64,000 nt of DNA from Paragyromitra xinjiangensis (Eukaryota; Ascomycota; Pezizomycetes; Pezizales; Discinaceae): the NCBI GenBank assembly GCA_038503065.1, contig JBCAMK010000022.1:682001-746000 (forward strand), in the 5' to 3' direction. The translations under genes were made by a program, and so were the position numbers. Position 1 is the first letter of the stretch; the number at the start of each line of letters is the position of its first letter. The notes under the pieces were generated by a model. It was not told where the DNA came from and did no database searches. It worked only from the letters and a program-made list of their open reading frames with translations. This document shows positions 28,089-50,732 of the stretch, piece by piece.

Positions 28089-28796
28089 GTTGCGAAAAGC
28101 TTGATTTGCTACCACCCGCCTTTTGCGTGTTACCATAGCCTTTGACACGCTATGGTAACAAAAATAGGCGAAATAGGCGAAAACGACCAATCGAGCTTTT
28201 TAATGTCTATCAAGAGACAACCAAAAGCATATCCCATGTTTTTCATTTGCTTTGACCGTGCTTTTACCGTGCTTTCACCGTGCTTTCAATAAGCTTTGAC
28301 AGCCAATAGGTAAACTATCGAGACCTTTGGAAATGTAACTTGCGCAGCTCCTCGAAGCCATTCTGTAGATTCCCTGTACGCGATGATAGTCCTCTAGGAG
28401 CATTCTTGTACGCTGTCAGAGTGAATTGGGGAGGCTTTGTGTACACTTCTGAGCGTGTGTTGGGAGGCTTTGTGTACGTGATGATAGTCTTTTGGGAGCG
28501 TTCTCGTACACTGTCAGAGGGAATTGGGGAAGCTTTGTATATGCTTCGGAGCGTGTTTTAGGAGGCTTCGTGTACGCGACGATAGTCTTCTGGGAGTGTT
28601 CTCAAATCTCTCTAATTGTCATTTCGTATACTACTCTGACGCTGTCAGAGTGATACATTGTGCCCGGAGATTATATTTATTTCTTCTATTCTCTGCTATG
28701 CTATGCTATGCTATGCTACGCTAATCTATGCTAATCTATGCTAATCTATCATTCTATTCTACGCTGTAATATACTTTCCCCTAAATCCCATTCCCA
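28089..28796. repeat. Left subterminal region of the giant transposon
   Basis: Contains an 11-bp perfect hairpin (28129-28139 with 28149-28159, GTTACCATAGC), three ACCGTGCTTT repeats near 28255-28285, and three tandem units of about 98 bp around GATGATAGTC (about 28382, 28480, 28578). Each unit carries GCTGTCAGAGTG or a variant near 28409, 28513 and 28643. GGAGGCTTTGTGTAC here is echoed inverted near the right end (ACACACAAAGCCTCC, about 50540). A GCTAT-rich microsatellite lies at 28690-28755. Such arrays are typical transposase-binding ends. No gene seen. Confidence 0.8.
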
Positions 28797-30751
28797 TCAA
28801 CAGCCGTCACCAGAATCATCGCTATCGTCCGCAAGCAAATCCACCTCCGGGTTCCACACCACCGCCGGTTTCCCTCCATCGCCAGTCTCCCATCCCGATA
28901 ACCTTTTTACCTCCGTTAGTTGGATGCCGAGGATAATTCGCTGGGATTCTTTCGGTATTGTGTTCCACTGATTGGTATACTCATCGTAGACCCCTTCGCC
29001 TTGCAATCAGCTCTGATAATTGTACAATATCCCCCGTCGTGCAGACTCTGACGTGCAGACACTGACATGCCGACTCTGACATGCCGACTCTGACGTTCCG
29101 AATGGACACGGTATACACACAGGCTCACCTTTAAACGTCCCTCCTTCAAAGTTTTTCCTAAGATACTCCCCCGAAGACCAATTGTCAAGAGCGTACCAGA
29201 TAGCTACTGTCGCCAAAACCAAGGCCACTGGGCTAATCTCGTCGCTATATTTTCGGGTGTGAGGTCGGCGTGCATATGTTTTTTTGCCGTACCAAGCACC
29301 GTGAATTACATTAGCGATTGCGAAATGGCAAAACATTTTCTTCGGGACCTGTGTTCGGGTTAGCACTCTACTGTGATCTGAAGGACGAGCGGTTAAGGAA
29401 ACTACTGGTAACTCGCCTTTTTCTTCTCATCCAAAAAGTGGAAATGATGACTGTTATCGCGTGTAAGCCTACGAACGCGATTAAGGAGGTCGTCTCCCTT
29501 CAATGTATCAAGGCCGTACACCTTACAAACACACTCCCTAGCCGCTTCGGCAAAGTACCCTCGGGAGGTTGATATACGGTCTGCCAACTTTATGCCAGAG
29601 TCTCAGTGTCAGCCTCCACTAACTGTGTACAGGAAAGGAAGGTTGATACCATGTGAATTTCGGTATCGCCGATCTCGCTGAGGTCGAATCGATCGCCCGA
29701 TTCCCCATACACCTCTCGAAACACAGAAACAGCCATCATCTCCTGCACGTCTGGCCGGGGGTAGGGGTTTTCCGTCTGTATTCGTAGTACGAATATATCT
29801 CTTGCAATTGACCAGTTGGGATTAAGCTCACCTCTATCCCTCAGTGTGCCTATTTTTCTCTTGTCCCGTGATCTTGCCTCACTAGGCGGGACCGAGTCTG
29901 ACAGCGTCGAGGCCGACCTCCTTTTTCGGAAATTGCTGCCGGCATAGCTACCGCTCCCATTACTATCGTGTCCACTGCTTGAAGACAAATTGGAAATGGA
30001 GGACTATCAGTATGAGTAAGCCAATGTCAGAGTAAATGTCAGAGTTGAAGCTGATGCAGGATACATATCCTATTTGAAGGGGATAGCTTACGCCAGGTCC
30101 AATAGACTTCCTCACAGGCGGTTGAAATGGGGTCGGAGTTCTATTGGAAGAGTATAGCAAGTACGGCCCGGAAGAATCATCATCACTTCTAGTTGCCCCC
30201 AAGTCCTCAAAATCTCCTAGATCTGGGCTTTGCTGAATGCTGGGGAGCGGGGTCTGGGGAGTTAAGTCTAGCTCTCTCGGACTCCGCTGAGCACAAGGCG
30301 GATGTTGGGTAGCGGTGACAGCAACTGGAGGAGACGATAGTATGCTCAAGGGCTCGGTTTGGGGTGTCTGCGAAGGGGGAGGAAGAGTAGGGGGAGGAGG
30401 TGGCGGAGTAGGGGGAGGAGGTGGCGGAGTAGGGGGAGGAGGTGGTGGAGTAGGAGGAGGAGGAGGTGGCATGGTAGAAGGTTCGAAAGGAGTAGCTGGC
30501 ACCAAAATGTTGGAACTTGCGAGAACATCTGCCCCCGTCGCCGTGTCAGAGTCGTACTCTGACTGGCTGGCTGCCTGGCTGTCTGGTAGTGTCAGGGCAG
30601 TGGTGGCCCTTCGACGTGTCGACGCGTGACCACCCGAGGGTTTTCTCGAAACTCTGCCACGTCTGCTGTCAGTATTTGTAGACGACGATGCAGCTGAATT
30701 ACGCGTCTTTCGTTGTGTATCAGGGTATATTGCTTGACTTTTTGGAGGCAT
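28797..30751 (-). CDS. DUF6532-like gene of the giant transposon (multi-exon, function unknown)
   Basis: Exon 1 30751-30092 starts MPPKSQAIYPDTQRKTRNS, is rich in Ser/Arg, and has a proline-repeat linker (PPPPPPTP units). Intron 30004-30091 (88 bp) joins to exon 2 30003-29631; intron 29581-29630 follows. Exon 3 (from 29580) carries RGYFAEAARECVCKVYG. Further exons carry VIHGAWYGKKTYARR, EISPVALVLATVAIWYALD and a last exon ending DDSDDSGDGC at 28797. The last two introns are less certain, one candidate being only 35 bp. The alanine-rich helical block resembles the fungal DUF6532 domain as I remember it. Introns 1 and the last hold ACTCTGACA motifs. No catalytic residues recognised; a structural or DNA-binding role in transposition is only a guess. 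Confidence 0.62.
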
Positions 30752-31476
30752 GGCGAGGATGTTTAATACAAATACTCAAGGGGGGGAAACAAGGGTGATG
30801 GGGCGAAACAGGGGAGTGAAGGCAGTAATGCAAGGCTATGATGGTTGGTAGAAGAGGGAGAGGGATCGTAAGAAGAAAGGGGGATAGATAAAGGGGGATC
30901 CACGGTACTGGGAGGCCTGAGACCCGCGGAGCTGGAAGGATCTGCGACGCTAGGCTCAAGTCGAATATCATGTCTTCTCACTCAAAAAAAACCTTCCTAT
31001 TCCTCCCAATAAATACAAATTTGCAGTACTCCGAGCCCGTCCCCATAGTAAAAGTAAACCCTCCGCCACATAATAAAGATAACCCATGGAAAAAACAGAA
31101 ACGAAATAAAGAAAACCAAAAATATGCCCCCAATACCCGTCCCATACCTATAGTAATATCCTGACAAAATAAGAAGGGAAACTGATACCCCTGACGGCGC
31201 AACTCTGACAGAATAGGAGGTCTGACAAATATCGAGTCAGCCGCCTGTTTCGAGCTCATCGGGCTCCGGACAAAACTAGTAAGAAAACGAATACCCATAT
31301 CCCCCCGATACCCATACCCGCAGCAGCACCCAGACAAAAGAAAAGAAAACCTATACCCTGTCCCCCGATACCCATCCCGTACCCATAGTAATACCCGAAC
31401 AAAACAAGAAAGAAAACCAATACCCATATCCTAACCGGCGCAACTCTGACAGAATAGAAGTCTGACGAGTGCCGAG
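30752..31476. other. Intergenic stretch between the DUF6532-like gene and the helicase 3' end
   Basis: A CT/GA-rich segment (30760-30960) is the upstream region of the minus-strand gene. 31122-31269 is a degenerate direct duplicate of 31361-31507, including a copy of the helicase's last codons (TTTCGAGCTCAT). ACTCTGACAGAATAG occurs in both copies. No gene seen. Confidence 0.7.
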
Positions 31477-33966
31477 TCAGTCCTCTATTTCGAGCTCATC
31501 TGGGCCCCCGCGTCCAATAATCTGGTCTCTTAAAACCGCTGGAGGTATCTTGCCGATCAACGTGTCAAAGACCTCGTCTGTGTCTGCTATTCCCCCGAGG
31601 CTCTCCATAACTCCCCATGCATATAGCATAGGGCTCTGGCGCTCCCGCTGGGCCTTCTCGATCAATGTATCGATCGTTTGGAGATTAACTAGACGCTCGG
31701 TGTTTTGCTCTTCCTTTTGCCCGATGCGGCGGACCCGACTCCATGCCTGATGCTCCGATGCATAGGAAAGACCTTGCTCTACCATGATGGTATCCGAGCA
31801 TTGATAGTGAAGATTGATGCCCTCGTTGCTGCAGAGATAGGAGAGGACCAGAACGTCGATGTCCTTGGTTTTATTGAATGAATCCTTTATTTTGTCACGA
31901 TTCTTATTGCTTAGACCACTGTAGACAGCAAAGCAGGTAATCCCGAGCAGTCGAACGTACTAGTTTTATGTTAGAACATGATCGAGCGATTAACAGATCA
32001 AGTGGGGCCGACGCCGACGCCAACACTGACGCTGACGCCAACACTGACACTGACACTGACACTGACACTGACAGAAGGCTACTTACTTCTTGAATTAGCC
32101 ATTGCGACAGAGGCCAATAGACCCACAATATAACCTTCTTCCCGCCCAAAGTGACCAATTCGTGCAATCGATCTTTGAGTCGACCCAATTTTAGACTGCA
32201 GAATTCCATTGCCCGGACCATATCCTCATCGCTCATGTTGGCCATAGATTTCGGGTAGAAATCTGTTCCCCTGTCCGGCATTTGCTCGCGGAACTTCGTC
32301 AGCAGAGATTTCACCTTCAAACGGTGTGGACGGCCTTCATCCGCCCGGTCCTTGCTGAATAAGTTCTCCGTGGAAAACTCCTCGGCAAAGGAAGCATAGG
32401 CAAGCAAAGGGGACAATGAAACCAAACGAATATAACGCCAACGGGGGCCAAATTTATGGCCTGGAATTGGCGCTTGCTGCCCTTCTGCTATTGACCTGCC
32501 AAAAGAAGCGCGTATTTGGGCATAATTGTCGACTAGGAAGGAATAAACATCCTTGGATCCGTCATCTGCGAACTGCAGGCGAGTGGTGACAGTCTTCATG
32601 ACGGGTATATCGATAATCGGCTTACCCACCCGAAACGGAATCCTGCTGACCATCGAGCGGCGGAGTATCAGAGTACGCAAAATCTCTTGCGCATATCCTC
32701 CCACTATCCGCAGGGAGTCTGACAAATGTTGCCGCTGGCTCGGGGTGATCATTCCTGTGCGCTGGAGGTGCTGCAACTTCGATGCATTATTGAGATTGCC
32801 CCAGATAAAGGCGTTCCAGGCTTTTGTTGTGCAGTGGACATAAGAGCCATGTGCCTTATAATCCCGGAACGGATCTGCGAGAGGAGTAAAGGCTGCATCC
32901 AGATTATTTCCGTCCTCGCTGGGTCGATCAGGGTTTTGGAACCACGCTCCTAACTCGATGTCGTGTTTATTGGCAAACGTATCTGGGGGCAGGTTGTCCG
33001 ATAGCCACTCAGGCCGTTGTAGGAACCGACATACCCACCGGAGGTCTGACATGGTACTTACTAGAGGGGTGGCCGTTAACATCCATTTGGCCTCTGGATT
33101 TAGCGAGTCCAAATTTTTTGCCCACATTGCCATGGCATTGTTTGGGTCGCTGCGGGAAAGTAATCCTGTGGTGGGGCTAATGACGCCTGCTGGGGGGGCG
33201 CCGGACACTCGGAAGCGATGAGCTTCGTCGAGTACTAAACGCTGAAGAAGCAAGTCTTCAGTACCCCAAAATCTTCGGCCACGGAAGTCCTTGGTGTTCC
33301 AACGTTTCATCAACGTTTCCTTTGTGGTAATGATGACATGGCGCCACGGGAATTTGCTGGCAGAGTTGATTTGGTGCCAAGCCCTCCTATCGAAAAAAGT
33401 GTTGCCGTAGTGGAGAATCGGAGTGAGTAGAGTGTTGCTACGAATTGCCTCTTGCCATTCCGAAATCATTGGAACCGGACTAAAGATCACAAACGTCAGA
33501 GTCAGTACTGACAGTGTCAGAGTGCGAAAGTGTCAGAGTTATTGGTACCAGATTATCAACGTCGGTCCCATGAAGATCTTATCCGGGTTCCGGGGCTTCA
33601 TATCTCCCTCCTTGAGTGTCCCTTCCCTTTTGGATCGTTCGTAGGTCCCGAGAGCCTGCTGGTAGAATTCCGTAGTCAAGTTTTGCTGGACCCGACGTGC
33701 TTCGTACTCATGAGCTTGAATACACAGTAGTCCCAGCAGTGTCATTGTCTGGTTGGTCCGAGTCAGGAATAAGAAATAATATCAGAGTGATGTGGAACGG
33801 TTTGATTGAACACTTACTTTACCCGTGCCACAGTCATCAGCGAGGAGTCCCCCATATGCTAAACCCTCTTCCTTTTCCTTCATCCAATTGATGCCGATTA
33901 TCTGGTGGTCCATAAATTTGAATGGAGGTTTGATCAATGGAAAAGCCCGTGTCGCCGGGTCTATGC

Positions 33967-33980
33967 CCAAGGCAGTGAAC
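33967..33980 (+). repeat. Target site duplication (left) of LINE E
   Basis: CCAAGGCAGTGAAC, repeated exactly at 40556-40569. It is part of the helicase coding sequence. Confidence 0.95.
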
Positions 33981-34526
33981 CAGGGAGCGACAACCATTCT
34001 ACCAGGACGAATTTTCGAAAATAACTCCACAACCAACAGAGATATCATCAAACCGACTTCATATTCGGAATCAGCGCCCCCTTTTACCCCCTTCTACACC
34101 TCCTGGGAAATCCATCTCTTCTATTGCAGAAGTTGTTGTGATTTTCCCCTTCATTTCCCCTCTTTGGGGCTCACCCCACCAAAAAACCCGCCGAGCCCCC
34201 CCTCAAAATCGTCGCCAGTCAACCAGTTCTTGTCCGATTGACTTGAAACTTGCACATCCACGCCGCCTACATACTACGGCCCAGGATTTTTAGTTTCAGC
34301 CAAATCGGCCCACAGGCGCCCGAGTAGTACTCATTTTATCGCCGAAAAATCGCCAGAAATCTCGGAATATTGCAATTCTGACTGACAGCACATCACCTGC
34401 TACCTTCTGGAACATTCCATCGGTGGAACCCAATCAGCCTCCGGTCTTCAACGTCCAATCAACTTTTGTCTCGGCAATTTATTTTTAGTTTCCGTTACAC
34501 GAAAAATTCCGATAAATTCCGGAACC

Positions 34527-36131
34527 ATGTCGGCCCACGGGGATGAAATGCAAGACGACACGGAACTTCCTGTCGTACCTCCATCTTCACCTCCCTCCAG
34601 CCCTACCATGACGGCCACCAACCGATTCTTGAACGTCAGCCAGCATGCTCCTGACATCTTGAGCAGCGACCCTATTTCCTCCACCACCAAACCTCTCCCG
34701 GCACCATTTGCTCGCAAGATTACACTCCCACCACCATTCTTCTCCTCAGCTGGCAACTCCCCCACACATCCTCTATCATTTAGAAACACTTTGGGAGGAA
34801 TTGACCTCACCTACGAGCCAGAACCAATGACCAGGACCAGATCCGCAGCTGGCCCGTCAAAGAGAACCTTTGGCAACCAACAGCAATCTGCTCCCCCTCC
34901 CAAACGCACTCCCAGCTACTTTGCACTCCCAATGAGTCAAAACGATGTCAACCAGCACCTCATGGCACAGAATGAACACCTGAACAAGGAAATCGCTGAG
35001 CTCAAGATGATGGTTAGCAACCTCACCACCCAAATCTCAACCTCCCTGGGCTCCATGAGCCACACTGTGATCGGGAAAGTGGATTCAATCCACCGCACCC
35101 TGAAAGCAACTCCTGTCGTACCAGCAATCACAGCAACAACAATCCCCACCGCTCCCCAACAACCCAAGAAGAACAAGGGAAAGGGAAAAGCAACTGAAAA
35201 CGCGCCAGCACCTCCTCCCCCTCCTCCACCTCCTGCACCAAAGACTTGGGCCACTGTGGCGAAAGATGGAAAGCCTGCGAAGGCCAACACTGACATCCCC
35301 ACAACTCCAACCCCAGAACTCACCAAGAACATGATTGTCCAACGCAGTGGTGATCAGAAAGAAGAAAGCCTCAACCTCCTTGTCCTGCGCAACACCATCA
35401 ACAAAGAACTCCTGACTGCCAAAGCACCAGAAAGCCTCCAGATCTCAGGAATCTCCTGGAACCTGAAAGCAAATCTCCTGCTCTACACTCGCAATGGATT
35501 CACCAGCACTGACTTTGACCTGCACAAGGCCACCATTGAGAAAGTTGTGAAGGAAAGCGATGAGAAAGCTCTCTTTCTCTCCAAACAGGAGTCCTGGCAC
35601 AAGGTTGCCATCCACGGAGTCCCAATCATGGAATACCCTGACAATCGTACTGGCATGAGCGACCTGCAAAATGAACTGGAATACCAAAACAGTGATCTCA
35701 AACTGGCAGCACCTCCTCGCTACATGACCCACCCCGACAAGAGAAACGGAAAGTCCCACAGCTCGGTGATGATTGCCATCACCAGCAAAAGCATGTACAA
35801 CAAACTGATCAAAAACGGAATCCTCATCTTCGGCCAAAGACACAGGACCGGAGCCTACTTGACTGCACGCCCTGGGGACCAATGTTCTAACTGTCAAAAG
35901 TTTGGACACAAGTTCCAGAGATGCCCCTCCACCAAGCCAGCCTGTGCCTACTGTGGACACGAACATGCTACCAACAAGCACTTCTGTGGGACTTGCAGAG
36001 CCACTGACTCCTGCGCCCACATGCCTCCCAAATGCATCAACTGTGGTGGCACACATAAAGCCACTGACAGATCCTGTGTTGCACGCCCAGACCTCTCCCG
36101 AACTGAAAAAGACATCATGGTGGAACAATGA
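34527..36131 (+). CDS. LINE E ORF1: Gag-like RNA-binding protein
   Basis: 534 aa starting MSAHGDEMQDDTELP. A disordered Pro/Ser-rich N-terminus is followed by a coiled-coil-like helix (about residues 135-185, N-E-H-L-N-K-E-I-A-E-L-K), a basic/proline linker (KKNKGKGKA, then a run of prolines near residue 235), and an RRM-like region. Three zinc-knuckle-type clusters end it: C-S-N-C-Q-K-F-G-H-K-F-Q-R-C, C-A-Y-C-G-H-E-H and C-I-N-C-G-G-T-H (about residues 453-520). The stop TGA overlaps the ORF2 start (ATGA, 36128-36131). Role: RNA packaging and chaperoning of the LINE RNP. Confidence 0.93.
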   Translation: MSAHGDEMQDDTELPVVPPSSPPSSPTMTATNRFLNVSQHAPDILSSDPISSTTKPLPAPFARKITLPPPFFSSAGNSPTHPLSFRNTLGGIDLTYEPEPMTRTRSAAGPSKRTFGNQQQSAPPPKRTPSYFALPMSQNDVNQHLMAQNEHLNKEIAELKMMVSNLTTQISTSLGSMSHTVIGKVDSIHRTLKATPVVPAITATTIPTAPQQPKKNKGKGKATENAPAPPPPPPPPAPKTWATVAKDGKPAKANTDIPTTPTPELTKNMIVQRSGDQKEESLNLLVLRNTINKELLTAKAPESLQISGISWNLKANLLLYTRNGFTSTDFDLHKATIEKVVKESDEKALFLSKQESWHKVAIHGVPIMEYPDNRTGMSDLQNELEYQNSDLKLAAPPRYMTHPDKRNGKSHSSVMIAITSKSMYNKLIKNGILIFGQRHRTGAYLTARPGDQCSNCQKFGHKFQRCPSTKPACAYCGHEHATNKHFCGTCRATDSCAHMPPKCINCGGTHKATDRSCVARPDLSRTEKDIMVEQ

Positions 36132-39100
36132 TTGTGCAACCAAACCCACACAAGATTCGCCTGATGCAACACAACTGCCGAAGAAACCAAAATGTTATGT
36201 TATCCCTCCTCGACTCAGCCTCAGAAACGGCTGATATAGTTATTATTCAAGAACCCTTTGTTATGCCCGATACTTCCCCTGACGCACCACCAAACTCCTG
36301 GACATCAATATCTCATGGGTCATTCGCAAGAATGATTCCAAGCTGTATTAACCGCCCTCGAACCATGACCTTTATATCAAAATCCAACCTCTTCCTGAAA
36401 TATCAGCCAAGGCCCGACATCATCAATAACGAAGATGTACAGGCCATAGAGCTGTCAACCCCCTCCATTCCTTCCTTTACCCTCCTCAACATCTACAATG
36501 AACAACCTGCAGCATCACAACGATCTCCTGACAGCCACCCCCAATACACAGTTGAACGTGTACTTGTGGGATTAAAGCTACCAGAACGTTGTATCATGGC
36601 AGGTGACTTCAATGCCCACCATCCTCTCTGGGACTCACGAGTCCGTTCACCAAAACGACATGAAGCTCTTCTAGCTATACTAGAAGAATTCAATTACACC
36701 CTCATTAACGAACCTGACATTTATACCTACAACTACCCAACAGGCACTGGCAGATCCGTTTTGGATCTTGCCTTCTCCTCCTCACCGATGACAGACTTGA
36801 TTATGAACTGGGCAGTCATGGAAGACCTTGCAACAGGATCCGACCATGAAGTGGTTCAGTTTGAAATTGCTTCCGACTCTTTGGAATGTGCCCCCCCACC
36901 ATCAACGGAACAATTTAATTGGGCCAAGGCGGACTGGGACGGCTTCCAACAAACTTTCACCCTTTCCTCCATCACTACTAAAGACACCTGGGAGTTCCTA
37001 CACTCCCACCCAACCCATTCAAACCTAGACGAGGCAGCTCAACACCTACGAGATTCAATCATAGCAGCTGCTAACATCCATGTGCCCAAACGAAAACCAT
37101 CGCCCTTCGCCAAACCTTGGTGGAATGAAGACATCAAAGAAGGACGCAGACATATGAAGACAGCCCTCAGGGACTGGAGAACAGATCAGACTCCAGCCAT
37201 GTGGCGAAGATTCAAAAACCTGCGAACATCCTACTTCAGACGAATCAGAACAGCAAAAAGTGAACACTGGGATACATTCCTAGAAGAAGCTCACGGAAAA
37301 GATGTCTTCACAGCAATGAGGTACACCAAGCCTCGCAGATGTGAACGCACCCCCACCCTACACAATCCCACCACCCTCCAAGAGTCCAAAACCTTTGAAG
37401 AGAAAGCCAATCTCTTCCGAGCAACTCTATTCCCTCCCCCTCCCTCAGTGGAACTTGATGAACCTGTCCCAGCAGGAAAACACAAGATCCCATGGAAAGA
37501 CCTCACCAACGATGAGATTCGGAAAGCAATCATGACCTCAGCACCAAAGAAAGCCCCTGGACCTGATGGAATTGGCTTCCTATGCATTCAAAAAGCATAC
37601 CAAGTCGACCCAACGCAGTTCAATTCCTTCTACAAGGCCACCATGAAAGCAGGATACCACCCAACCATATGGCGTGAAGCTACAATTGCAATCATCAGAA
37701 AGGCCAATAAACCTGACTATACGATAGCAAAAGCCTACAGACCAGTATCACTCCTCAACTGCCTTGGCAAAGTCTCAGAAAAGATCATAGCAACCCGATT
37801 AGCATTTATGGCAGAAAGATATCACCTTCTCCATAGATGGCAAATTGGAGGTCGACCAAAAAGATCAGCTGTGGATGCTTGCATGCTTATCAGCACGCTT
37901 GCCGATGCAGCCAAAAAGAAAGGCCTAACACTCTCTGCACTTTGTATGGACGTGAAAGGTGCATATGATTTTGTATTCAAACGACGACTTATCAAGACCA
38001 TGATAGAACTGGACCTCCCACTTCCCATCTGCCGATGGGTGGACTCCTTTCTCAGCAATCGAACAGCCTGCATGGCATTCGACGGTGAAATTGAATCCAT
38101 GGCACCCATTCAAACTGGCATCCCACAAGGATCCCCCACCTCCCCTATCCTCTTCCTCCTCTACCTGGCTCCGTTGTTCAACGAGCTAGAAGAAAAATAT
38201 CCTGATTCCACCTGCCCCAGCTATGTTGATGATGTGGGCCTTCTGGTTACAGGAAAGTCTGAAGCAGAAAACTCTCGAACACTGGAAGCAATGGCACTCA
38301 CCTCCTCCGAATGGGGTGAGAAAAATGCCTTGTACTTTGACAATCCAAAGACAGAACTCACTCACTTCCACTCCAGACGAACAACTGACACCTCTGATGA
38401 AGCCAAAGTCACAATGCCTGACGGCAACGTGATCCAGGCTGCAGATGTCCAGCGATGGCTGGGTGTCTGGTTTGACCGCAAACTCACATTCAAACATCAT
38501 GTGAAGACCAAAGCTGCCTCCGCACTTCGAGCCTTCATGGCTATCTCCCGTCTCGCAAGCACAGAAAAAGGACTGAGTTACAAGGCACTTCGCCAACTCT
38601 ACCAAACCTGTGTAGCCACCATCAGCGACTTTGGAGCTGAAGTGTGGTGGAACGGGCAGATTGGACTCAGCAACACCATCCAGAAAGTCCAGAATCAAGC
38701 AATGCGCAAGATTGCTGGAGCCTTCAGAACCTCACCTGTCCACGCCCTGGAAGCAGAGACAGGACTCCTCCCTACCCCAATCAGATTGGATGAGTTGCAA
38801 AGGAAATATGCACTCCGAGTCCTTTCCCTACCCAACACCCATCCTATCACCTCCCTCTGCCCTGATTCCTGGCCTTCAACCCAGGAAAATGACAACCCAG
38901 ACAGCTCCAACAACACTCCATGGCACCAAACCACCACCTCCCCCAAATACGAAACAAGACTACATAGGATACTGGCATCTACCAACAAATGGGTCCAGCC
39001 ACAATCAGAGATTGAATACGTAGACAATCTGGCATGCCCACCATGGCACCAAAACACCATAGACATCTATATTGACCCCGCAGACAAAGACACTGCAGCA

Positions 39101-40132: not shown

Positions 40133-40555
40133 AAAGAACGGGCTACAGGCCCAAAGCATGTGATGGTGAAGGACGATAGAAAACTGATGAATACCCTGAA
40201 AGTGGGGTGAGATGGAACATGACCGTGTGGAGGATTTCTGATTATAAAAACTGTTTGAGTATTTCCCTATGATTTTACCCTGTCGATTGATATTCCGTTC
40301 GTTTCTACTGTTCGGTAGAACTTTGAGATAAATTGTTATTTCCTTTTTTGTTTTCTTTGATGTTATTTGTTTTTGATTTATTTTTCTTATGTTTTCGCAA
40401 AAGATATCTGATGTGGATATCTACTAATTAGTTGGTTCATGTTCGTGGAGGATTTTCTTTTGTTAGTTATTGTGCGGTCATGGGGTTTCCTTTCACTGTA
40501 TGCCATATCCGTTACGGATTTATGCAATATGAGCAATAAATAAATAAATAAATAA

Positions 40556-40569
40556 CCAAGGCAGTGAAC
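40556..40569 (+). repeat. Target site duplication (right) of LINE E
   Basis: Exact copy of 33967-33980, following the AATAAA-repeat tail. Confidence 0.95.
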
Positions 40570-40959
40570 GACTCTTGGAGATTCTCCCTTTGGAAGATCT
40601 CGTTATCCAGGATTCTGTGCAACCTAAATTAAGCGCCGACTGTCAGAGTGTACTGTCAGAGTGGGTTGTCAGAGCATGACTCGTACCATTCAACACTAGC
40701 TGTATCTCCTTCGGCGTCATCGGGCCCTTCCTTCCGAGAATCATCTCCAGTCTCACCAAGAACTATTTTATCGAATGGAGCCCCGGCAATTAGATCAAAG
40801 TCGGCATCTGTGTTGATCAGAACCTTCGGCCTGGGTTTAACCTGGCTGTCAGGCCCGCCCTGGCCAATGCCGGTGAGACGCCGTGTGGGTTTCACTATTT
40901 CACCGATATCTGGTTCCGACTGCGAACTGGCCGAATCTTCGCTGCTATCCGCCGGTGGG

Positions 40960-41110
40960 TTATCCCCCCCCTCCCCCCCCTCCTCCCCCCCTTCCTCCCC
41001 CTTCCTCCTCCCCTTCCTCCCCCCCCCTCCCCTCCTTCTGCTTCCCCTTCCCTCCAGATGCGCCCTGATCCTCCCCTCCCCTCCCTTCCTCCCTCTGCTT
41101 CCCCTTCCCT
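40960..41110. repeat. Homopyrimidine/homopurine low-complexity tract in helicase exon 2
   Basis: Long C runs broken by TC/TT on the plus strand; on the coding strand G-rich, encoding Gly/Glu/Lys. Runs of up to nine C invite slippage. The coding frame left of the tract differs by one base from the frame on its right, so the change lies here or close by. Confidence 0.85.
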
Positions 41111-42357
41111 TCAGCTGCGCCCTGATCTTCTGTTTCATCCTCCATCGGGTCCTGCTCATCAATGGGTGTGGGGGTGCTAGCAGCCAGGCGTGATTGCCTA
41201 GCCGGGTTGCGCGCGGGGGATAGCGTCTCCTGGCGCCGGCTAGGCATTTCAACATCTTGATCTTCAGGAGCTTCGTTGCCAATGCGAAGGTTTGCCACTC
41301 TGCTGGTGGATCGCCGGAGGCTTTGGTCGGTCCTCTCCCTCTCCCTCTCCCTCTCCCTCTCCTCATTGTCTGCGGTATCGTTGTTTTCGTCCTGCGCTGC
41401 CGACTCTGACACTGACACATGGGGAGGTGCTGGGGCTGGAGCTGGAGCTTGTGGAGCGGTCGTGAGCGATACCATTAAGATCCCCATGCGGCTAGCATTG
41501 GATACAGCAAACTCCCAATCCGCCTCTGTAAGCTCATAATCGTCCAGATCAAACTTCGGTTGCGGTGATGGCGTGGTGCTGGCCAAGTACTGAGCGACTC
41601 GTAACCCAAGGAAAGATAGGCCATATTCGGTCTCTACCCAGCGCTCGAAGTCACCCCAGTACTGCAGGCGGCGTTGGATGTTTGCCTGAAACTTTAGGGC
41701 GCTCCTTTTCGGCACTTCCAGTGGGTGATTATCCCATACCATTTGAAGATTGACTCGTTTCTCAATCGTGGGTTCCGGATCTCCACGGTCTTCCACTCGA
41801 ATCCTGCTGCGTGGTAGGCTCCCAGAGTCTCGCTGGGATGGAGCTGTACGGGCTGCAGGGACGGCATCGCGCCTTGCCAAAGTTCGAGACCGAGAAGTAC
41901 TCCTAGCACCAGTGCTTCTTCTAGCACCGACCTGGGTCGAAGGAGAGGCTTGAGAGGTAGAAGGGGCCCGGGTTGCTGGCCTTCTCGCACTTGAGGTGGC
42001 GGTCGAAGGAGTGGCAGACGAAGAAGAAGTGCCTGCGGTTGCTGATCGTCGAGATGCCCTTGGAGTAGTAGCTACAGAAGCCGGAGCTGGAGCCGCTGGC
42101 CGTCTCGGGGTGGCAGCCGGGGTGCCGCCACTGCGTACGGCCTGCCGAGCAGCACAGCCTAGAACCCGATGGGCATCGCGAATATCGTTGAGAACTACGG
42201 GGTCATTGGGACCAAGAGCAAAAAAAACCCGAGCACCATCGACTAGGCCCTCGAGTATAGTCATATATTCCTATTTATATCAAGAGATGTCAGAGTGTGC
42301 GATGTCAGAGATAACCGATGTCAGAGTACGTGATGTCAGAGTGGGTGTTTAGATTGA

Positions 42358-43281
42358 TATACTGTAACGGACCCACAAGGCTGTTACATGCGAAAGGTAG
42401 AATAGACCCGGGCAGACGGAGAGGTACAAGGACCAGCATGAGTGGAGTAGCTACCACATGCTAGGGAACACCAGTACCCCGCTGACCTGGTGGTTAGGAA
42501 CATCCGGAGGTGCTAAGGCTGACGGGCCAGTAGCAGATCTCCGATGACATCAAACACTTAGAGATGTGGTTGAGTTCCAAATCCACCTGTGCATGCCCCA
42601 CCAGCTATGGCTGATAGGCGGCGCAACTGGGAGAACTATTCTAGCGGACACCTGACGCAACTATGGACTGATCAGCGCCATGCAAGCAGTCCTACAGGAC
42701 TAGGCTGGCGGATCATAGAGTCCTGACTGGTAGAGCAGTGCATGAGGAGCGGTTGCACATGAGGTGCAAAACTCCAGCGGAATGTGAGAGAACACTTCCG
42801 AAGGGAACCGCCCCTGATCACTGACAGGATTCAGGGTTAACCGGATCCCCCAGCTGAGTAGAACTGAGTAGAGGCGGCGAGCATGCAGTACTACAAGTAC
42901 TGGCGAGCCCCGCCACCAGTTGCTCTTCTCCGATCTTCAACCAGAGACCTAGTGACGAGAATTACCGAGTTCCGCCCTTAAGATTATTGAGTATACTGCA
43001 CGAAAATACTTTAAGATCTCAGCCTGACTTTAGTATAAGCAACGGCCGTCTTTTCTAGCTTAGCGGTATATGTCTCGAGTCCTTAGCTTCTTCAGTTTCT
43101 TCTGCTGTTGGAAGAGGACGAGTTCGTTTCCCGACCGTGATAGTTTTCAGAGTCTTCACGAGTTTACCCCTGAGTGGTTAGACACGCACTACCTGCAACA
43201 CAACTGCTCCAGTGCGAGTACCATTCAGATACCGAAGCCAGTACTGCTTAAGAGACTAGGCGAGGCCCCCGTTACATATAC
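42358..43281 (+). repeat. Solo LTR (914 bp, family 2) with target duplication TATAC, in helicase intron 1
   Basis: TATAC at 42358-42362 and 43277-43281 flanks 42363-43276, starting TGTAACGGACCCAC and ending CCCGTTACA. It lies just inside the GTATAT donor of intron 1 (antisense to the gene), so splicing might still remove it. The first 680 bp match the LTR at 52704-53436; the 3' end is longer and different. Confidence 0.93.
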
Positions 43282-43536
43282 CTGAAGTTTTCCCACAGGT
43301 TGCTGGCCGGCAGGGACAATATTCCTTGTGGTAACTTGCGCTAGTGAAGGCGACTGAGCAGTGGCATACTTCGTCTTCCATGCTACTAGCTCTGAAACGG
43401 CATCGGTAACAGCATCTGAGCCGAGAAATTCCTGCGTCTCCGACTTGTCTAACTTGAAGGCAGTTCTCACATTTTCGACGGTATAATTAGATGCGGCTAT
43501 CGGCCACTCTCGAATATTACCACCTGCTTGTGCCAT

Positions 43537-44099: not shown

Positions 44100-44280
44100 A
44101 TGCCCTCTGGACTGGATTTTCTTTGTGGAATCTGCGGAAAGTCCTTTGTTAGCCCAGGTGGCTTGACTGTCCATCATCGTCGAACTCACAATAAGCAGTC
44201 CCGAGATCGTGTAAGGTTCGATGAAGATGACGCGGACAATAGCTGTCCCGGACAGGAGGAGGAGGAGGAGGAGGAGGAGG

Positions 44281-46537
44281 TTATTTATTTATTTATTTAT
44301 TTATTGTTCATACTCGCATGCATCCGAAACGGATATGGCGTACAGCAGAAGAAAACCCAACAGGAACATAAAAGAAAACAAAACAAAACTAACTAATCCT
44401 CCACCAGTTCCAACTCAGCCTCTTCTAGGCTTGTCATCAGTGAATGTGTTAATACCCCGATCTAGTGACTCCCTCTCACAGTGTCAAGACTACCCTGGGC
44501 ATTCTTCCTTTACCATCGCTTGCTTTGTGCCTATAGCACTCCTTCCACGAGGTCCGAAGACCCCTGAAGGTTGGATACATCAATAAGGGTGGGGTGTAAC
44601 TTAAGTTACCATGCGATCCTGACGTTCGCTGGCACTAAGTTTGGCTTGGGTGAGTTTGAGGCAACCAGAGAAGTTACCACGATGCGGTTCGTTACAGTTC
44701 TTGCAACGGATGATGGTGTGGAGGCAGGGAGCTCCCTTGATGGTGCAAGAGGAGGTTGCGCATGAGTGGGCGGATGCTGTATGAGGCCCAGCACAGATGT
44801 TGCAGAAGGGTGTTTTGCTGGTACAGCGTTGTTGTGGGTGGCCAAAGGCCAGGCAGGTAGTGCATTGGGTGTCAGGCCCAAAGTGAAGGTATTTGGTGAC
44901 TTTGTGATGAAGTCCAAACATGGAGAGCCCTCTCTCAAGGGCAGTGGTGGCAGGCTGCTTCCCCACAATGGTAAGAACCATGGAGGATGCCTGTTTCCCC
45001 TCTCTCTGCTCAGGTCTGGTGAGCCAGCGGGGGTCACGGAGTAGGGTGGTGCCTGGGTTAAACTGCTCAACCTCAGATCTGATCTGCTGGAAGCCCTCTT
45101 CGCCAGAGGGAATGGAGGTGGGAATGTTGTGCACAACAACTTGGGTCAGGACTGCTTCCTTCTCCATGCTGTTGGCATTGGGAATGGTGTTGCGAACAAC
45201 TTCCTCAAGCTTCTGTCTTTGCTTAAGGAGGGAGTCAGAGGTAGTGGAGGTGACAGCAATGAGCTGCACATGGTGAGCTGGTGTGAATCGCACCTCTGCA
45301 ATCAATGGCCTTTCCAGGGCAGCATTGACTGCATTGCGAATGAGGAGTGGGGTGATGTCATCAGGAATGGGTAGACCATTCCTGGTGATGATGAGGGTAC
45401 GGTCGCGTTTTGGGGGGTTTGGAGGTGTTTTGGTAGGCTTGGAGGCCTTGCTGGCGGGTCTAGGAGCCCTTTTAGAGGCAACCTGAGCCCAGGAGGTGGT
45501 GGCTGGTGGGGGAGGTGGGGGGAGGTTGGCAGAGGTCAGAATGGTTGTGAGAGTCCGTTTCTGTTCCAGGTCTGCAACCTTGGAGGTGAGGGTAGCCACC
45601 TTTTCCACTAGAGCTGGGTCATTGTGGAAGGTAGGGGCTGGTGGGGGTGTATTGATGGCTTTTTCAAGCTGTTTGACGCGTTTTGTGAGTGCTTTGATGA
45701 GCCTGTTCTGCTCATCCATCACTGCGAAGAGGGAGGGGTTGTAGTTCTCCCCAGTGCCAATGGCACCAAGGCGATCCAAATTGCTGTTTGAATCATCCAT
45801 CTGGATGACTGGAGGTAGGGTGGTAGAGAAGGTGAGGGGTCCCTCAGTGTCCGTCATGTCAGAGTCAGACTCTTCCAGGAGGACAGAGCCACTGTCTGTG
45901 GGCTCTGTGGCGGGCAGGGAGGCATAGTGAGGTAGGGGGACTGCTGGGCGAAGTGGCAGGGCTTGTGTAGGTGTTTGCTCTGGGTCTCCATGAAGCAAAG
46001 GCGAAAAACGGGTGTTTGGGGGTGTTGTAGGGGCGCCAAACGGCGTTTGGAGCGGGTTTTGAGGTGAACTAGTCACAGAAGAGGGAGACCTGAAGCCTCT
46101 GCCTCTCCCTCTGCCTCTAGTCGAAGAGGAAGACATAGAGGGTCCTGAACCGACAGGAGGAGGTGGGGTGTATGGGGGGGTTGCTTGTGGGGCCCTGGGG
46201 GGGTCCCTGGCGGGTGGGGGAGGGTGGGAGCAGGAAGTGTCAACAACTTCTGCAAATCTGCTCGGATCCGAACGAACGAGAGGGCGATCGAACGGGCACA
46301 GTGAGGGGACTCCAAAAAGCCCGGGGTCGAGTCAATCGGAGTAGTATTGGTGGAGATATGAGGTTTTGCAATATCTCAGGATTTGGTGTGGTTTTGGGAA
46401 AAGAGGGGTAAAATAGCGAATTCGACAACAACTTTTGCAAATCGAGAGCGACCTCGACGTACAATAGCAGGATCGAACGAGGGCAGCGAGCTGATTCCGA
46501 ATAATCAAAAATCTCGTTAATCGGAGTAGTATTGGTT
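44281..46537 (-). mobile_element. ORF1-only (HAL1-like) LINE, copy 2, inside the transposase gene
   Basis: 2,257 bp on the minus strand, flanked by GGAGGAGGAGGAGG (44267-44280 and 46538-46551); because this is a microsatellite, the duplication length is uncertain. The 3' tail appears as TTATTTATTTATTT at 44281, preceded by the hairpin sequence ATCCGAAACGGAT near 44323. There is a 5' UTR and one intact ORF, with no RT. It matches copy 1 (7167-9410) end to end. Confidence 0.9.
44601..46136 (-). CDS. Intact ORF1 (Gag-like) of the ORF1-only LINE
   Basis: 511 aa, MSSSSTRGRGRGRG start, no stop or shift. Arg/Gly-rich basic N-terminus, acidic Ser/Asp patch (about 80-115), coiled-coil-like segment (about 150-205: M-D-E-Q-N-R-L-I-K-A-L and T-S-K-V-A-D-L-E-Q-K), an RRM-like region (about 245-400) and zinc knuckles (C-T-T-C-L-A-F-G-H-P-Q-Q-R-C, C-N-I-C-A-G-P-H, C-K-N-C-N-E-P-H; about 415-495). 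It has kept an open frame although the element has no polymerase, so the protein may help its own RNA in cis. Confidence 0.9.
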   Translation of the reverse strand: MSSSSTRGRGRGRGFRSPSSVTSSPQNPLQTPFGAPTTPPNTRFSPLLHGDPEQTPTQALPLRPAVPLPHYASLPATEPTDSGSVLLEESDSDMTDTEGPLTFSTTLPPVIQMDDSNSNLDRLGAIGTGENYNPSLFAVMDEQNRLIKALTKRVKQLEKAINTPPPAPTFHNDPALVEKVATLTSKVADLEQKRTLTTILTSANLPPPPPPATTSWAQVASKRAPRPASKASKPTKTPPNPPKRDRTLIITRNGLPIPDDITPLLIRNAVNAALERPLIAEVRFTPAHHVQLIAVTSTTSDSLLKQRQKLEEVVRNTIPNANSMEKEAVLTQVVVHNIPTSIPSGEEGFQQIRSEVEQFNPGTTLLRDPRWLTRPEQREGKQASSMVLTIVGKQPATTALERGLSMFGLHHKVTKYLHFGPDTQCTTCLAFGHPQQRCTSKTPFCNICAGPHTASAHSCATSSCTIKGAPCLHTIIRCKNCNEPHRGNFSGCLKLTQAKLSASERQDRMVT

Positions 46538-48507
46538 GGAGGAGGAGGAGGGTGCGCCCCGAAGACCAGATACTTTTCCTGATGCGGGCATCGCTCTACC
46601 ATGCCCACCAGTAACTCATCCATGTGATAGCCCCGATTGGCATCCTTTGTTTCCTTTCGAATCAAAGTTACAATGGGACTTCTGCCATACCCATGTAGAG
46701 GAGAATACGGGAAAGGCCACCCTGGATCGTATGATACGTCGTGGAATATTCAATGATAAGATCAATATTAAAAGTGCCGATCATTTCCGCGAGTTGATAC
46801 ATGCTATGGATGACGGACTTGACTGCGAATGGATGGAGGGTACGGTTAATATGGAAGGTGAAGAGGTGGAATACTGGTATCGAGATCCAATGGCAATCCT
46901 AAGATATCTTTTCGGCCACCTACCTTTCAAAGACCACTTGACTTATTCTCCGATAAAGGATTATGGTTCCGACAGCAAACAATTATATTCTGAGATGTGG
47001 ACAGGCAACTGGTGGTGGCGGCAACAGGTAAAAGCACTTCTAGTCTCGGCTCCCTGACACTGACACTGACTCTGACACTGACTCTGACACTGACACTGAC
47101 ACCGACACCGATGTTTATATTGACTTCGAACTAGGAGAACGCTCCCAAGGGGGCAACGATTGCACCGATTATTATCGGTAGCGACAAAACAATGCTATCC
47201 ACATTGAGCGGTGATAAGAGTGCATGGCCAGTATATATGTCGGTTGGAAACCTCGCGAAAAAGAAACGACGAGCCGTCAGAATGAATGGGTTGGTCTTGC
47301 TTGGAATCCTCCCTAAAATCCCAAAGAACCCAGCAAGAGAAACGACGAGAAAGACCTTTCACGAGGCAATCCGGCAGATGTTGCGCCCTTTTGAATCCAC
47401 AGGCCAGGAAGGGGCAGATGTCGTTTGTGCAGACGGATATACAAGGAAAGTCTTTCCCCGCATCGCGACATGGATAGCCGATTACCCAGAAATGGTCACT
47501 CTGACATTGGTAAAGTCTATGTGGTGCCCTAGGTGCGAATGCACCCCCGACAACTTAAGTACTCTGACTGGGGTCCCGCCTACCCCCAGAGATCCCACCC
47601 GCTATGCTCTAATGTCGACAGCGGAGCTCGAAGCCGTAGGGCAGTGGAGATTTGATTTCGAAAACTTTGCCGCCCACCACGTTCACTGCAATATCTATCA
47701 TGCAATCAATCCAGACCGGCTTCATCAATTACTCAAGGGCGTCCTGAAGGACCATACATGGAAGTGGGTATGTACATATCTCGTACAGGAGCATGGACCA
47801 CACGTCATCGCGGAGATTGATCAGCGGTTCGCAGAGATACCCCTGTTTAGTGATCTGAAGAACTTCGGTCACAAATTTTCCCAGATTTCTCAGTGGACGG
47901 GGGCAGAATACAAGCACATGCTGAAGGTGTGGATCGGGGTCTTAGCACCATTTTTTAAAAGACGACCGGAGCACTTGAGATGTCTGAAACATCTTACTGA
48001 ATTCATTATGTTTGCCGGCTATCACTCCCATACAGAGAACACCCTGGAAATGATGGATAAAGCAATGGCGGGCTACTTTCTGAGTCTCTTTTGGGGAACT
48101 TCGTGGAATCCAGGGACTCTGGAAACTTTGACCGCATACCAAAGCTTCACATGATGCGCCATTACACCGAGAGTATACGCGACTTCGGATCATGTGACAA
48201 CTCTGACACAGAGCAAAGTGAAGCCGCGCATTCCTGGATGATCAAAGAGGCCTATCGATCAACGAACAAGGTAAAGCCGCTTTTGCAAATGCTAAGATGG
48301 GAGGATAGATTGTTCAAACTTAAAGCACGAACCACGCTGCTGCAACATCTGATAAAGACCGGCTCACGATGGGCAACAGTCTGTTTATCTCTTGTGGATG
48401 AGTTACGAGTCGGTCGGAAAGAAAGGAAAACTGTCATAAGTGGGCATATTCCCAAGCAAGTTTTGATGGGAAAACTGCAGCTACCGCGCCACATCAACGT
48501 GTCAGCG

Positions 48508-48625
48508 TCAGAGTTGACGCCCACGTCAGAGCTGGCCCCCACGTCAGAGCTGGCCCCCACGTTAGAGCTGGCGCCCACGTCAGAGTTGGCGCCCACGTCA
48601 GAGTTGGCGTCCGCGTCAGAGTTGC
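48508..48625 (+). repeat. 18-bp coding repeats (hexapeptide TSELAP) in the transposase
   Basis: Six imperfect units of the form ACGTCAGAGCTGGCCCCC. Each contains the GTCAGAG core that is scattered through the transposon's noncoding DNA. Confidence 0.85.
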
Positions 48626-49364
48626 TGAAGCTTGTACGGGATTATCTCTTTACAATCCAATCCGGGGCGAACACTAGTTATCATTTGACACAATATCGAA
48701 GCAGTATCCCCTGGATTGCAGCACAAAAGGTTACGATGGGCACAGGAGTGGTGGCCAGCTTCCCTTCTCACAACGACCCTGAGGAATTCTGCACAGAATT
48801 TGCGCAATGTGTGACCGATTGGAGGGGAGATGGCTCCCGGTACGACCACGTCCTCATTCAAACAGAGCCTGGGGTTAGTGGGCCTAACCAGAGCTACTTC
48901 AATGAGACTGGCTTGAAGCCGGCAGAGCTCATTTGTGTTTTCACCTTCATCGACAAGGTCCCCGATGGAAATAAAGACAACGGTCGTCCAAAGTTTCGCA
49001 AAATAGGCCACGAACTGGCGTTGGTGGAATATCTGACTGTGATGAATGCCGGTAGGCCTAACCCAAACAGCGGCATGATAGAAGTCCGTAAACAATCGGA
49101 GCTATCGGATACCGGAGTCACGACAAAGCGGAGAATTATTCCAGTGAGCCGTATATCCCGTGCTGTTCACCTCATCGCTGCAGAAGCAGGCAAAAAAGGG
49201 CGATATTTCATCAACAACTACATCGATCTAGAGATGTTTAACACGGTTTATTAGGCAAGGTCGGCGTCAGAGAGTCGGTGTCGGAGGGTCAGTGTCAGAG
49301 TGTTGGTGTCAGAGTTGGTGTCAGAGTGTTGGTGTCAGAGGCGAAGTCCGAGTGTGTCGAGATT

Positions 49365-50066
49365 GAGGACAACAAAGAGGGAATTCCTCCAGACCAGCAG
49401 CGTCTCATTTTCGACGGCAAGCTAGGCTACTCAGAAGGAGTCGACTTTGCACTTGGTCCTTAGCCTTCGTGGTGGTTCCCAGTAGATCGGATGGCAACTG
49501 CAGGACGTGATTACGGGAAATGTTTTCATATTCATGTTGGATGAGAACAAGGAAGGCATTCCTCCAGACCAGCAGCGTCCCATTTTCGACGGCAAGCTAG
49601 GCTACTCAGAAGGAGTCGACTTTGCACTTGGTCCTTAGCCTTCGTGGTGGTTCCCAGTAGATCGGATGGCACTGCAGGACACGATTACGGGAAATGTTTT
49701 CATATTCATGTTGGATGAGAACAAGGAAGGCATTCCCCCAGACCAGCAGCGTCTCATTTTCGACGGCAAGCTAGGCTACTCAGAAGGAGTCGACTTTGCA
49801 CTTGGTCCTCAGTCTTCGTGGTGGTTCCCAGTAGATCGGATGGCAACCGCAGGACGCGATTACGGGAAATGTTTTCATATTCATGTTGGATGAGAACAAG
49901 GAAGGCATTCCTCCAGACCAGCAGCGTCTCATTTTCGACGGCAAGCTAGGCCACCCAGAAGGAGTCGACTTTGCACTTGGTCCTTAGTCTTCGTGGCGGT
50001 TCCCAGTAGATCAGATGGCAACCGCAGGACGTTATTACAGGGAATTTTTTCATATTCATGTTGGAT
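49365..50066 (+). repeat. Tandem array (4 units of about 175 bp) containing a ubiquitin-derived segment
   Basis: The marker CCAGACCAGCAGCGT occurs at 49389, 49564, 49738 and 49913 (spacings 175, 174, 175). Units 1-4 each encode E-N-K-E-G-I-P-P-D-Q-Q-R-L-I-F-D-G-K or a one-residue variant, matching the ubiquitin segment around residues 32-48 (D-K-E-G-I-P-P-D-Q-Q-R-L-I-F-A-G-K). After the GK the sequence departs from ubiquitin (L-G-Y-S-E-G-V-D-F-A-L-G-P) and most units stop with TAG. Unit 3 reads CAG at that point and continues to 49893. No start-to-end ubiquitin is present; the array follows the transposase stop by about 110 bp. Confidence 0.85.
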
Positions 50067-50732
50067 TAGGATAGGTCTTTAGCTAGTACTTGGGGTGTTT
50101 CTGTTTCTTGTGGCATACTGGTAGCGAACATAGCGAAAGCACGTCTAGTAGCGAATCAAAGGACTTAAACTAGCAAACATAGCGAAAGCACGTAAAATAG
50201 TAGGCATGTCAGAGTTAGTGGTAGCAAAATGGTAGACATGTCAGAGTTAGCAGTAGAGTGCACGGATATTAGCGAGCATAGTAAAAGCCCGCGGTAGCAA
50301 AGATAGCAAAATGGTAGACATGTCAGAGTTAGCGGTAGAGTGCACGGATATTAGCGAGCATGGTGAAAGCCCGCGGTAGCAAAGGTAGCAAAATGGTAGA
50401 CATGTCAGAGTTGCACAGATATTAGCAAGCCCGGTGAAAGCCCATGGTAGCAATGGTAGCAAAATGGTGGGCACGTCAGAGTGGGTGGTAGAGTGCACGG
50501 ATATTGGCGGGCATCGCGAAAGACCATGAAAGGAGAGCTAACACACAAAGCCTCCCGAAAGTATACGGGAAGGCTACGAGATTGCTCGCTAAAGGCGCCA
50601 TGCACTTTGAGAGACTACCAAAAGCACGGATATGCTATGGGAGGCGTGTGGTAGGACCCATATGTTACGCAAGGCTACCGGAAATTGCTAAATTTTACTG
50701 CGGCCCACGACTTTTTTGGGGCTTTTCACAAC
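50067..50732. repeat. Right subterminal region of the giant transposon
   Basis: Degenerate tandem units of about 80 bp combining GGTAGCAAAATGGTAGACATGTC, AGAGTTAGCGGTAGAGTGC and GATATTAGCGAGCAT (about 50200-50515). CATGTCAGAGTT occurs about five times. After it come the inverted GGAGGCTTTGTG partner near 50540 and the terminal inverted repeat (50721-50732). No credible gene. Confidence 0.82.

Follow-up and report, generated by a model that had tools for sequence, protein, structure and literature searches.

What kind of element interrupts a long terminal repeat (LTR) in this part of the Paragyromitra xinjiangensis genome, and why is it strewn from end to end with one short sequence word? The 64,000 nucleotides analysed here (contig JBCAMK010000022.1, positions 682,001 to 746,000, hereafter the window) contain a 22.6-kb insertion with a transposase gene, a SNF2-type helicase gene and a gene of the DUF6532 family. 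Its anatomy and protein domains identify it almost certainly as a multi-gene DNA transposon of the Plavaka (CMC-type) group. The most unusual feature of the element is a set of octamer arrays, built on the word GTCAGAG, that extends along its whole length. One explanation, which we regard as evenly poised between right and wrong, is that these arrays serve SNF2-linked, sequence-specific self-targeting, that is anti-silencing, by a recently mobile transposon of about 12.7 kb.

Ends, identity and genes of the transposon

The boundaries of the element were set by comparing its ends among copies elsewhere in the genome, and are listed here together with the subterminal repeats and the empty site.

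28088-50733, + strand: Plavaka-type DNA transposon, copy E1, with three nested insertions; supported by terminal inverted repeats (TIRs), an empty site in the window and 12 further long copies with both ends
28086-28087: target duplication TG, left
50734-50735: target duplication TG, right
28088-28100, + strand: left TIR CGTTGCGAAAAGC (family form CGTCGCGAAAAGC)
50721-50733, - strand: right TIR GCTTTTCACAACG (family form GCTTTTCGCGACG)
28248-28297, + strand: left subterminal repeats TGCTTTCACCG, 11-bp period
50220-50543, + strand: right subterminal array with inverted GGTGAAAGC and GTCAGAG
54249-54253, - strand: empty target site in an inverted LTR copy (ggagg TG cggcag)

When the left end (716 bp) and the right end (671 bp) were used as queries against the 48.2-Mb genome and the matches paired by position, at least 13 long copies with both ends were recovered (E1, the window copy, to E13), as well as E14, which has a left end only. 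Comparison of these ends shows a TIR of 13 bp, CGTYGCGAAAAGC, outer C/G included. Since this outer C/G belongs to the TIR, the element runs from 28088 to 50733 and the target duplication is TG. The flanking 2-bp words agree in nine of the 13 long copies (E1-E8 and E13; chance 1/16 each, binomial P 8e-9) and in five of seven copies of a short, non-autonomous family with related ends; the long copies with mismatched flanks are E9 (one letter off), E10, E11 and E12. The initial annotation of this DNA correctly placed inverted repeats at both boundaries, but it gave the ends 12 bp and the duplication four, GTGC. Each boundary in fact lies one base further out, and the 4-bp reading fits only the window copy, one of 13 long copies, versus nine of 13 for the 2-bp reading. 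Other copies terminate at identical element sequence, with 2-bp duplications of their own. We take the GTTG at the end of the window copy to be CGTCG altered by CpG decay. In the genome, 34 exact matches to the 13-mer CGTCGCGAAAAGC were counted, versus two for a reversed control, and 28 of them make 14 inverted pairs by our own pairing. A genome search with GTTGYGAAAAGC was unspecific (18 matches versus 10 for the reversed control); locus L004, one of its matches, shows no similarity to the element or to the short family.

The host LTR is indeed continuous without the element, as had been claimed, because an inverted, uninterrupted LTR copy within the window spans the insertion point. This copy, at about 54602-53944, aligns to the left flank over 354 nt (95%) and to the right flank over 183 nt (97%), and the two alignments overlap by five letters, GTGCG, which comprise the TG duplication and letters common to the ends and the site. 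The LTR-like stretch that was the target of insertion lies 3' of an open reading frame (ORF) at 26380-27504, one of two near-identical Ty3-type integrase/chromodomain ORFs in the window (the other at 2616-3722; both named by eye).

Assignment to Plavaka rests first on the transposase. In a Pfam scan, the domain PF18759 matched the window ORF with E 4e-59 and the E11 protein with E 1.1e-82, and the E11 protein contains the Plavaka residue series D, D, C(2)C, H(3-4)H, E in the expected order (GSDKT, ADGYT, CPRC, HCNIYH, DTE), with the D/D/E residues assigned by eye. The 2-bp duplication found in most long and short copies falls within the 2 or 3 bp that characterise Plavaka. Together with PF00176/PF00271 and PF20149 matches in the other genes, this profile search bears out the initial annotation's view of a multi-gene, Plavaka-like transposon with SNF2 and DUF6532 cargo. 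A suggested link to KDZ transposons did not hold up, as there were zero KDZ families among the Pfam matches and the duplication is 2 bp. In the available text of Kojima 2025 (PMC12730594), Plavaka is placed with EnSpm/CACTA and described as without sequence similarity to KDZ; KDZ transposons that carry TET/JBP genes resemble our element in being fungal DNA transposons with chromatin cargo, but they have another transposase, and Zisupton makes 8-bp duplications.

Within Plavaka, the same source describes PlavakaA and PlavakaB, which share with our element a PF18759 transposase, 2-bp duplications and chromatin-related cargo (TET/JBP in some); the cargo here is SNF2 and DUF6532 instead, and the ends differ. 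The element ends CGTCG..CGACG, matching neither the TGT..ACA of PlavakaA nor the CATCA..TGATG of PlavakaB, so that by ends as written it is assignable to neither. A relation to PlavakaB is possible, because CpG decay on the other strand turns CGTCG into CATCA and one short copy reads CATCG. No Pfam match to a TET/JBP dioxygenase was found among nine window ORFs and four spliced proteins; other copies were not searched. The words 'SNF2' and 'ubiquitin' are absent from the main text of PMC12730594, where TET-bearing Helitron and IS3EU elements are reported for Pezizomycotina, and in the parts consulted of PMC9674265 and PMC8290104 Plavaka appears merely as a repeat class. Plavaka with TET/JBP is already known. 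The literature searched, which did not reach subscription papers, yielded no account of a Plavaka with SNF2 cargo or of comparable arrays in fungi. The genome itself probably houses further Plavaka families: the transposase query gave 132 matches (119 candidates scored), many at 25-40% identity with open frames of several hundred residues.

The 22.6 kb first taken as the element's own size includes later insertions. About 9.8 kb is missing from E11 and E12, each 12.7 kb long, which puts the transposon proper at about 12.7 kb. Three nested pieces were delimited:

33981-40555, + strand: long interspersed nuclear element (LINE) with ORF1 and endonuclease-reverse transcriptase-RNase H (EN-RT-RNase H), in SNF2 exon 3, 14-bp target duplication CCAAGGCAGTGAAC
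42328-43275: LTR-type piece in SNF2 intron 1, left boundary approximate, absent from E11 and E12
44281-46541, - strand: ORF1-only LINE derivative in transposase exon 1, absent from E11 and E12

Parts of the LTR-type piece recur, at 96-97% identity, at 52692-53392. The ORF1-only unit is found again in E10 (L055/L056), inverted and with identical ends, and E10 also has a longer copy with about 2.8 kb extra between the same halves; from its sequence the derivative looks like a half-LINE moving as a unit.

The transposase frame of the window copy breaks near residue 315 of the transposase query used for the genome search; at this point the two sides match separately in six other copies, and E11 reads straight through. 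Besides this break, the transposase frame of the window copy is interrupted by an insertion and a LINE divides the SNF2 gene, for which reasons we regard this copy as derelict. Its left 716 bp are 96-100% identical in seven others (E2-E8), and judged by these comparisons the family is recently mobile and the window copy a derelict member of it. The long copies measure 12.7-22.6 kb each, except E13 at about 40 kb, inside which E5 is inserted (C1:2001601-2041677), pointing to two rounds of activity. E10-E12 (C17:897964-910675, C17:967444-980173; C13:862897-882822) have intact ends with mismatched 2-bp flanks, and E12 on its right and E11 on its left share the flank word GG, as ectopic exchange between inverted copies might produce. 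At C3:3640787-3642346, a family right end lies within 1.6 kb of a contig end, perhaps near a telomere.

The genes of the element were modelled as follows.

28797-30751, - strand: DUF6532 gene, five modelled exons (30092-30751, 29650-30003, 29417-29587, 29129-29348, 28797-28999)
31477-43536, - strand: SNF2 gene, six modelled exons, splicing from E11
43282-43536, 40687-42270 and exon 3 up to 40623, - strand: SNF2 exons 1-3, exon 3 being split by the LINE and resuming at 33980-33818
33549-33748, 32087-33479 and 31477-31959, - strand: SNF2 exons 4-6
44100-49254, + strand: Plavaka transposase gene, with a C2H2 finger exon from 44100 to 47027 (ORF1-only LINE inside) and exon 2 at 47135-49254

By position, and with presence in each copy taken from the best candidates of the genome searches, the 13 paired copies have matches to the transposase in 13, to DUF6532 in 12 (not E9) and to SNF2 in 11 (not E9 or E13). 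The spliced DUF6532 protein, a composite of E11 and E1, matches PF20149 with E 9.9e-29. The 764-residue SNF2 core of E11 matches PF00176 (4e-25) and PF00271 (4e-6) and contains both RecA lobes, with the motifs GTGKT, DEAH, LTATP and SEHQAWSRVRRIGQ. A separate gene at 40.7-43.5 kb was considered and discarded, as this stretch is the N-terminal part of SNF2 in the splice model.

The ratio of nonsynonymous to synonymous substitution rates (dN/dS) between E1 and E11 is 0.18 for the transposase, 0.33 for SNF2 and 0.38 for DUF6532, and between E2 and E11 it is 0.18 for SNF2 (161 codons) and 0.29 for DUF6532. At the level of these sequence comparisons, purifying selection is shown for all three genes. 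Ratios of E11 against E10 or E14 are 0.52-0.71, as expected of decaying copies, and those against E12, 0.19-0.46, rest on just 2 to 10 changes per gene.

When the SNF2 core profile was compared with solved structures, Rad5 (6l8n) was best (E 9.5e-24), and Fft3, LSH and DDM1 matched too. The element protein shares two RecA lobes and the helicase motifs with these remodellers but is set apart from them by similarity, apparently as its own branch. Among 5.8 billion proteins, of which the best 7995 candidates by shared words were scored, close relatives were few. The nearest were metagenome proteins at 59, 53 and 49% identity, with further proteins at 57 and 42% (partial), 34% and 32%; the nearest named relative is from Trichophaea hybrida (36%). 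Two of the relatives, P0002 and P0006, start or stop at SNF2 intron positions in short peptide repeats, which we would guess to be read-through of intron arrays.

GTCAGAG arrays along the element

E11 and E12 contain 47 copies of GTCAGAG each, an abundance that the initial annotation did not record. Dinucleotide shuffles of E11 (n=200) gave a mean of 2.07 and a maximum of 6, and the word occurs once in 28 kb and once in 13 kb of the window flanks and once in 21 kb at seven other loci. The window copy has 50, two of them inside the ORF1-only LINE. The extended form of the word is YGTCAGAGT. The window copy has these arrays and clusters, one of them of a variant:

28415-28650: four copies of GTCAGAG towards the left end, on the 3' side of the DUF6532 gene
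29046-29094, - strand: GTCAGAG array in DUF6532 intron 4, three units here
30026-30044, + strand: GTCAGAG pair in DUF6532 intron 1
32016-32073: related GTCAGTG-type array in SNF2 intron 5
33495-33538, + strand: GTCAGAG array in SNF2 intron 4
40642-40674, + strand: GTCAGAG array in SNF2 intron 2
42289-42341, + strand: GTCAGAG array in SNF2 intron 1
47054-47108, - strand: CTGACA/GTCAGAG array in the transposase intron
48506-48624, + strand: 18-bp GTCAGAGTTGGCGCCCA array within the ORF of the transposase, either coding or intronic
49258-49341, + strand: GTCAGAG array directly 3' of the transposase stop

In E11, 19 of the 47 motifs fall in introns, which make up 992 of its 12726 bp, and 16 in intergenic and terminal DNA (3197 bp). 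Six of the ten modelled introns contain GTCAGAG, and one has the variant GTCAGTG alone. Orientation is mixed in the long element, and unit number changes readily: the array in DUF6532 intron 4 has 3-8 units across 13 copies (E14 included; E9, whose left end misaligned, was left out of this count and of the CpG analysis).

The arrays also follow the family through the genome. Two octamers 4-30 bp apart occur at 220 genome places, versus five for a reversed control. Among the 100 matches listed (C1 to C8), long copies account for 81, a divergent relative on C6 for 10, the short family for six and other places for three, so that 97 of these 100 show the arrays to be largely confined to the family, its relative and the short family. 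The relative survives as remnants at C6:1421700-1432900 and C6:1468667-1469410, with a transposase of 73% identity and SNF2 matches of 47% and 51% (the latter over 201 residues), which are the only two matches to the SNF2 query outside the family in the genome search; its right terminus was not recognised in the 1 kb examined. Its arrays lie 3' of the transposase stop and beside the SNF2 match at 1432276, the latter where the window family has its SNF2 intron-4 array, and it also has GTCAGA repeats.

The short family was examined whole in seven copies of 1.7-2.6 kb; at least one more pair of its ends, at C17:1488846-1491275, lies outside these seven. It shares with the element about 200 bp at the left end and 55-166 bp at the right, whereas for its interior, arrays aside, the element offered no match. 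In all, 14.7 kb of the short family contain 35 motifs, in a single orientation throughout, with arrays about 500 bp from the left end. Because the interiors are alike among members, the short family counts as one independent case, not seven.

Possible roles of the arrays

A similar layout has been described in VANDALs, the Mutator-type elements of plants. In the parts of the work covered here, the YAGTATTAY arrays of Arabidopsis VANDAL21, which lie in introns and in intergenic and terminal non-coding DNA, are binding sites of VANC21 (Hosaka 2017, PMC5735166), and VANC proteins remove silent marks at these arrays, whose units are gained and lost fast (PMC5735166; Sasaki 2023, PMC10398659). As there, we find a short motif in tandem arrays within the introns, intergenic and terminal DNA of one family, rare elsewhere and turning over rapidly. 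The two systems differ in that VANC has been shown to bind, whereas here the transposase is Plavaka, the cargo is SNF2 and array orientation is mixed in the long element. With a Plavaka transposase the element is not a VANDAL; VANC itself was not searched for.

Based upon this comparison, an element-encoded protein would bind the arrays (GTCAGAGT) along the whole element, and the factor so bound would bring or direct the captured SNF2 remodeller. The enzyme would then act at the arrays on the element's own chromatin and keep it open against host DNA methylation and heterochromatin, allowing the genes to be expressed and the DNA to be accessible for excision, as VANC does for VANDAL. We hold the parts of this proposal with different confidence. 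The arrays are probably bound by a protein of the element. An anti-silencing role for arrays and SNF2 together is put forward tentatively, falling short of an even prospect. About as tentative is the idea that a fungal lineage evolved, independently of plants, an octamer-based self-recognition by which only its own copies and their short relatives escape silencing.

A first alternative is that the GTCAGAG arrays are transposase-binding sites that extend inward, with SNF2 and DUF6532 as passengers or expression helpers. Subterminal repeats of CACTA elements are transposase-binding sites, and this reading would be in keeping with a likely N-terminal C2H2 finger in the transposase, with the presence of some motifs near both ends and with the arrays retained by the short family in one orientation about 500 bp from its left end. 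However, the place expected for such sites already appears to be filled by the inverted subterminal GCTTTCAC, present in E11 three times at the left, three times inverted at the right and nowhere between 700 and 12000. The TGCTTTCACCG repeats are presumably the transposase sites, and because they occupy this place the GTCAGAG arrays need another role. In addition, GTCAGAG comes no closer than about 340 and 240 bp to the two ends of E11, with most copies far inside, and dN/dS is 0.33 for SNF2 and 0.38 for DUF6532. We therefore consider this alternative unlikely.

A second possibility is that the arrays are neutral minisatellites, a word spread in introns by slippage and without function. Slippage alone could account for the fast change in copy number (3-8 in one intron), and conservation of the motif is modest. 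Yet the same octamer stands at many non-homologous places with differing spacers, in the unrelated interior of the short family and in the C6 relative, whose transposase is 73% and SNF2 about 50% identical, which makes this account improbable. Least credible is that the arrays are multiplied intron branch points: CTCTGAC, present on the sense strand of five of the ten modelled introns (14 copies), contains CTGAC, which fits the fungal branch-point consensus, but in E11 all five motifs of DUF6532 intron 4 point the opposite way, intergenic and terminal DNA accounts for 16 of the 47 motifs, and arrays exist in the short family too.

A number of observations weigh against self-targeting through the arrays and SNF2. 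The link of the motif to any particular protein is a candidate one, and the short family, seemingly no carrier of genes, has arrays, which fits a role in transposition itself. The N-terminal zf-C2H2 match of the E11 transposase (E 2.9e-4, 21.6 bits) falls under Pfam's cut-off of 25.2, and two of the 13 long copies are without a SNF2 match. The gene models were built from open frames, splice signals (one non-canonical) and E11 junctions, and the SNF2 and transposase frames of E11 are themselves broken in places, so E11 was used for splice junctions and not as a working copy. Twelve of the 47 motifs lie in modelled exons (8537 bp), six of them in the 18-bp array of uncertain status, and three of the ten modelled introns have neither exact GTCAGAG nor GTCAGTG. 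In non-coding DNA, motif bases are identical between E1 and E11 at 227 of 238 positions versus 3519 of 3896 others (Fisher P 0.008), which is weak support because E11 itself served to define the motifs and adjacent bases do not vary independently; in introns alone the difference (123/133 versus 735/843, P 0.09) is not significant.

CpG content can be read in two ways. The observed/expected ratio of CpG is 0.83-0.87 in the element and 0.84 in the host region at 61-64 kb. The two LINE-type pieces nested in the element have lower values, 0.51 and 0.45, as have two other transposon stretches of the window, 0.57 and 0.74. The difference may reflect youth of the element, not protection, which likewise tells against the proposal. 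Most singleton changes in the terminal sequences of the window copy are CpG decay (3/3 left, 9/16 right), and for this reason the copy has probably been methylated. DNA methylase matches were found at three host loci, one with an in-frame TAG.

If the arrays and SNF2 do act together against silencing, they would represent a second, unrelated case, fungal and SNF2-based, and thus a convergence, with the motif and candidate proteins named. Among the literature covered, in the parts available, sequence-specific anti-silencing by transposons is described for Arabidopsis VANDALs only. The proposal would also supply a mechanism for the chromatin-protein cargo of fungal transposons, where, according to the available text of PMC12730594, the function of TET/JBP cargo is still untested. 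Independently of function, the ends, duplication, gene set and copies of one Pezizomycete Plavaka family are now defined.

Ubiquitin-derived DNA and other features of the window

Between the transposase gene and the right end lies a further repeat:

49365-50066, + strand: ubiquitin-derived tandem array, four 175-bp units with in-frame stops, 3' of the transposase

The initial annotation listed this array among the element's contents; the tandem array is present, but it is not a gene, since stops interrupt its frames, in both the window copy and the C6 relative. The 175-bp unit is present in all 13 long copies and near the C3 right end, and it also matches C7:298693-299574 and C15:1448803-1449689, at 69-88% over parts, loci that we take for polyubiquitin genes of the host. 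In the C6 relative the same ubiquitin core recurs in 63-bp units, about a dozen as counted by eye, again 3' of the transposase. By these comparisons the array is captured host DNA, old in the lineage.

Outside the transposon, a host importin gene at 62115-63938 has its nearest named relatives in Rhizina undulata (78%), Tuber brumale (76%) and Geopyxis carbonaria (72%), with other relatives up to 94%; judged by this one gene, the host would be a Pezizomycete rather than a basidiomycete. Finally, in a degenerate minisatellite (GCAGCGGAGGCTGCAGCACC...) at 54751-55308, an 82-nt unit is present in seven overlapping copies that are unevenly spaced.

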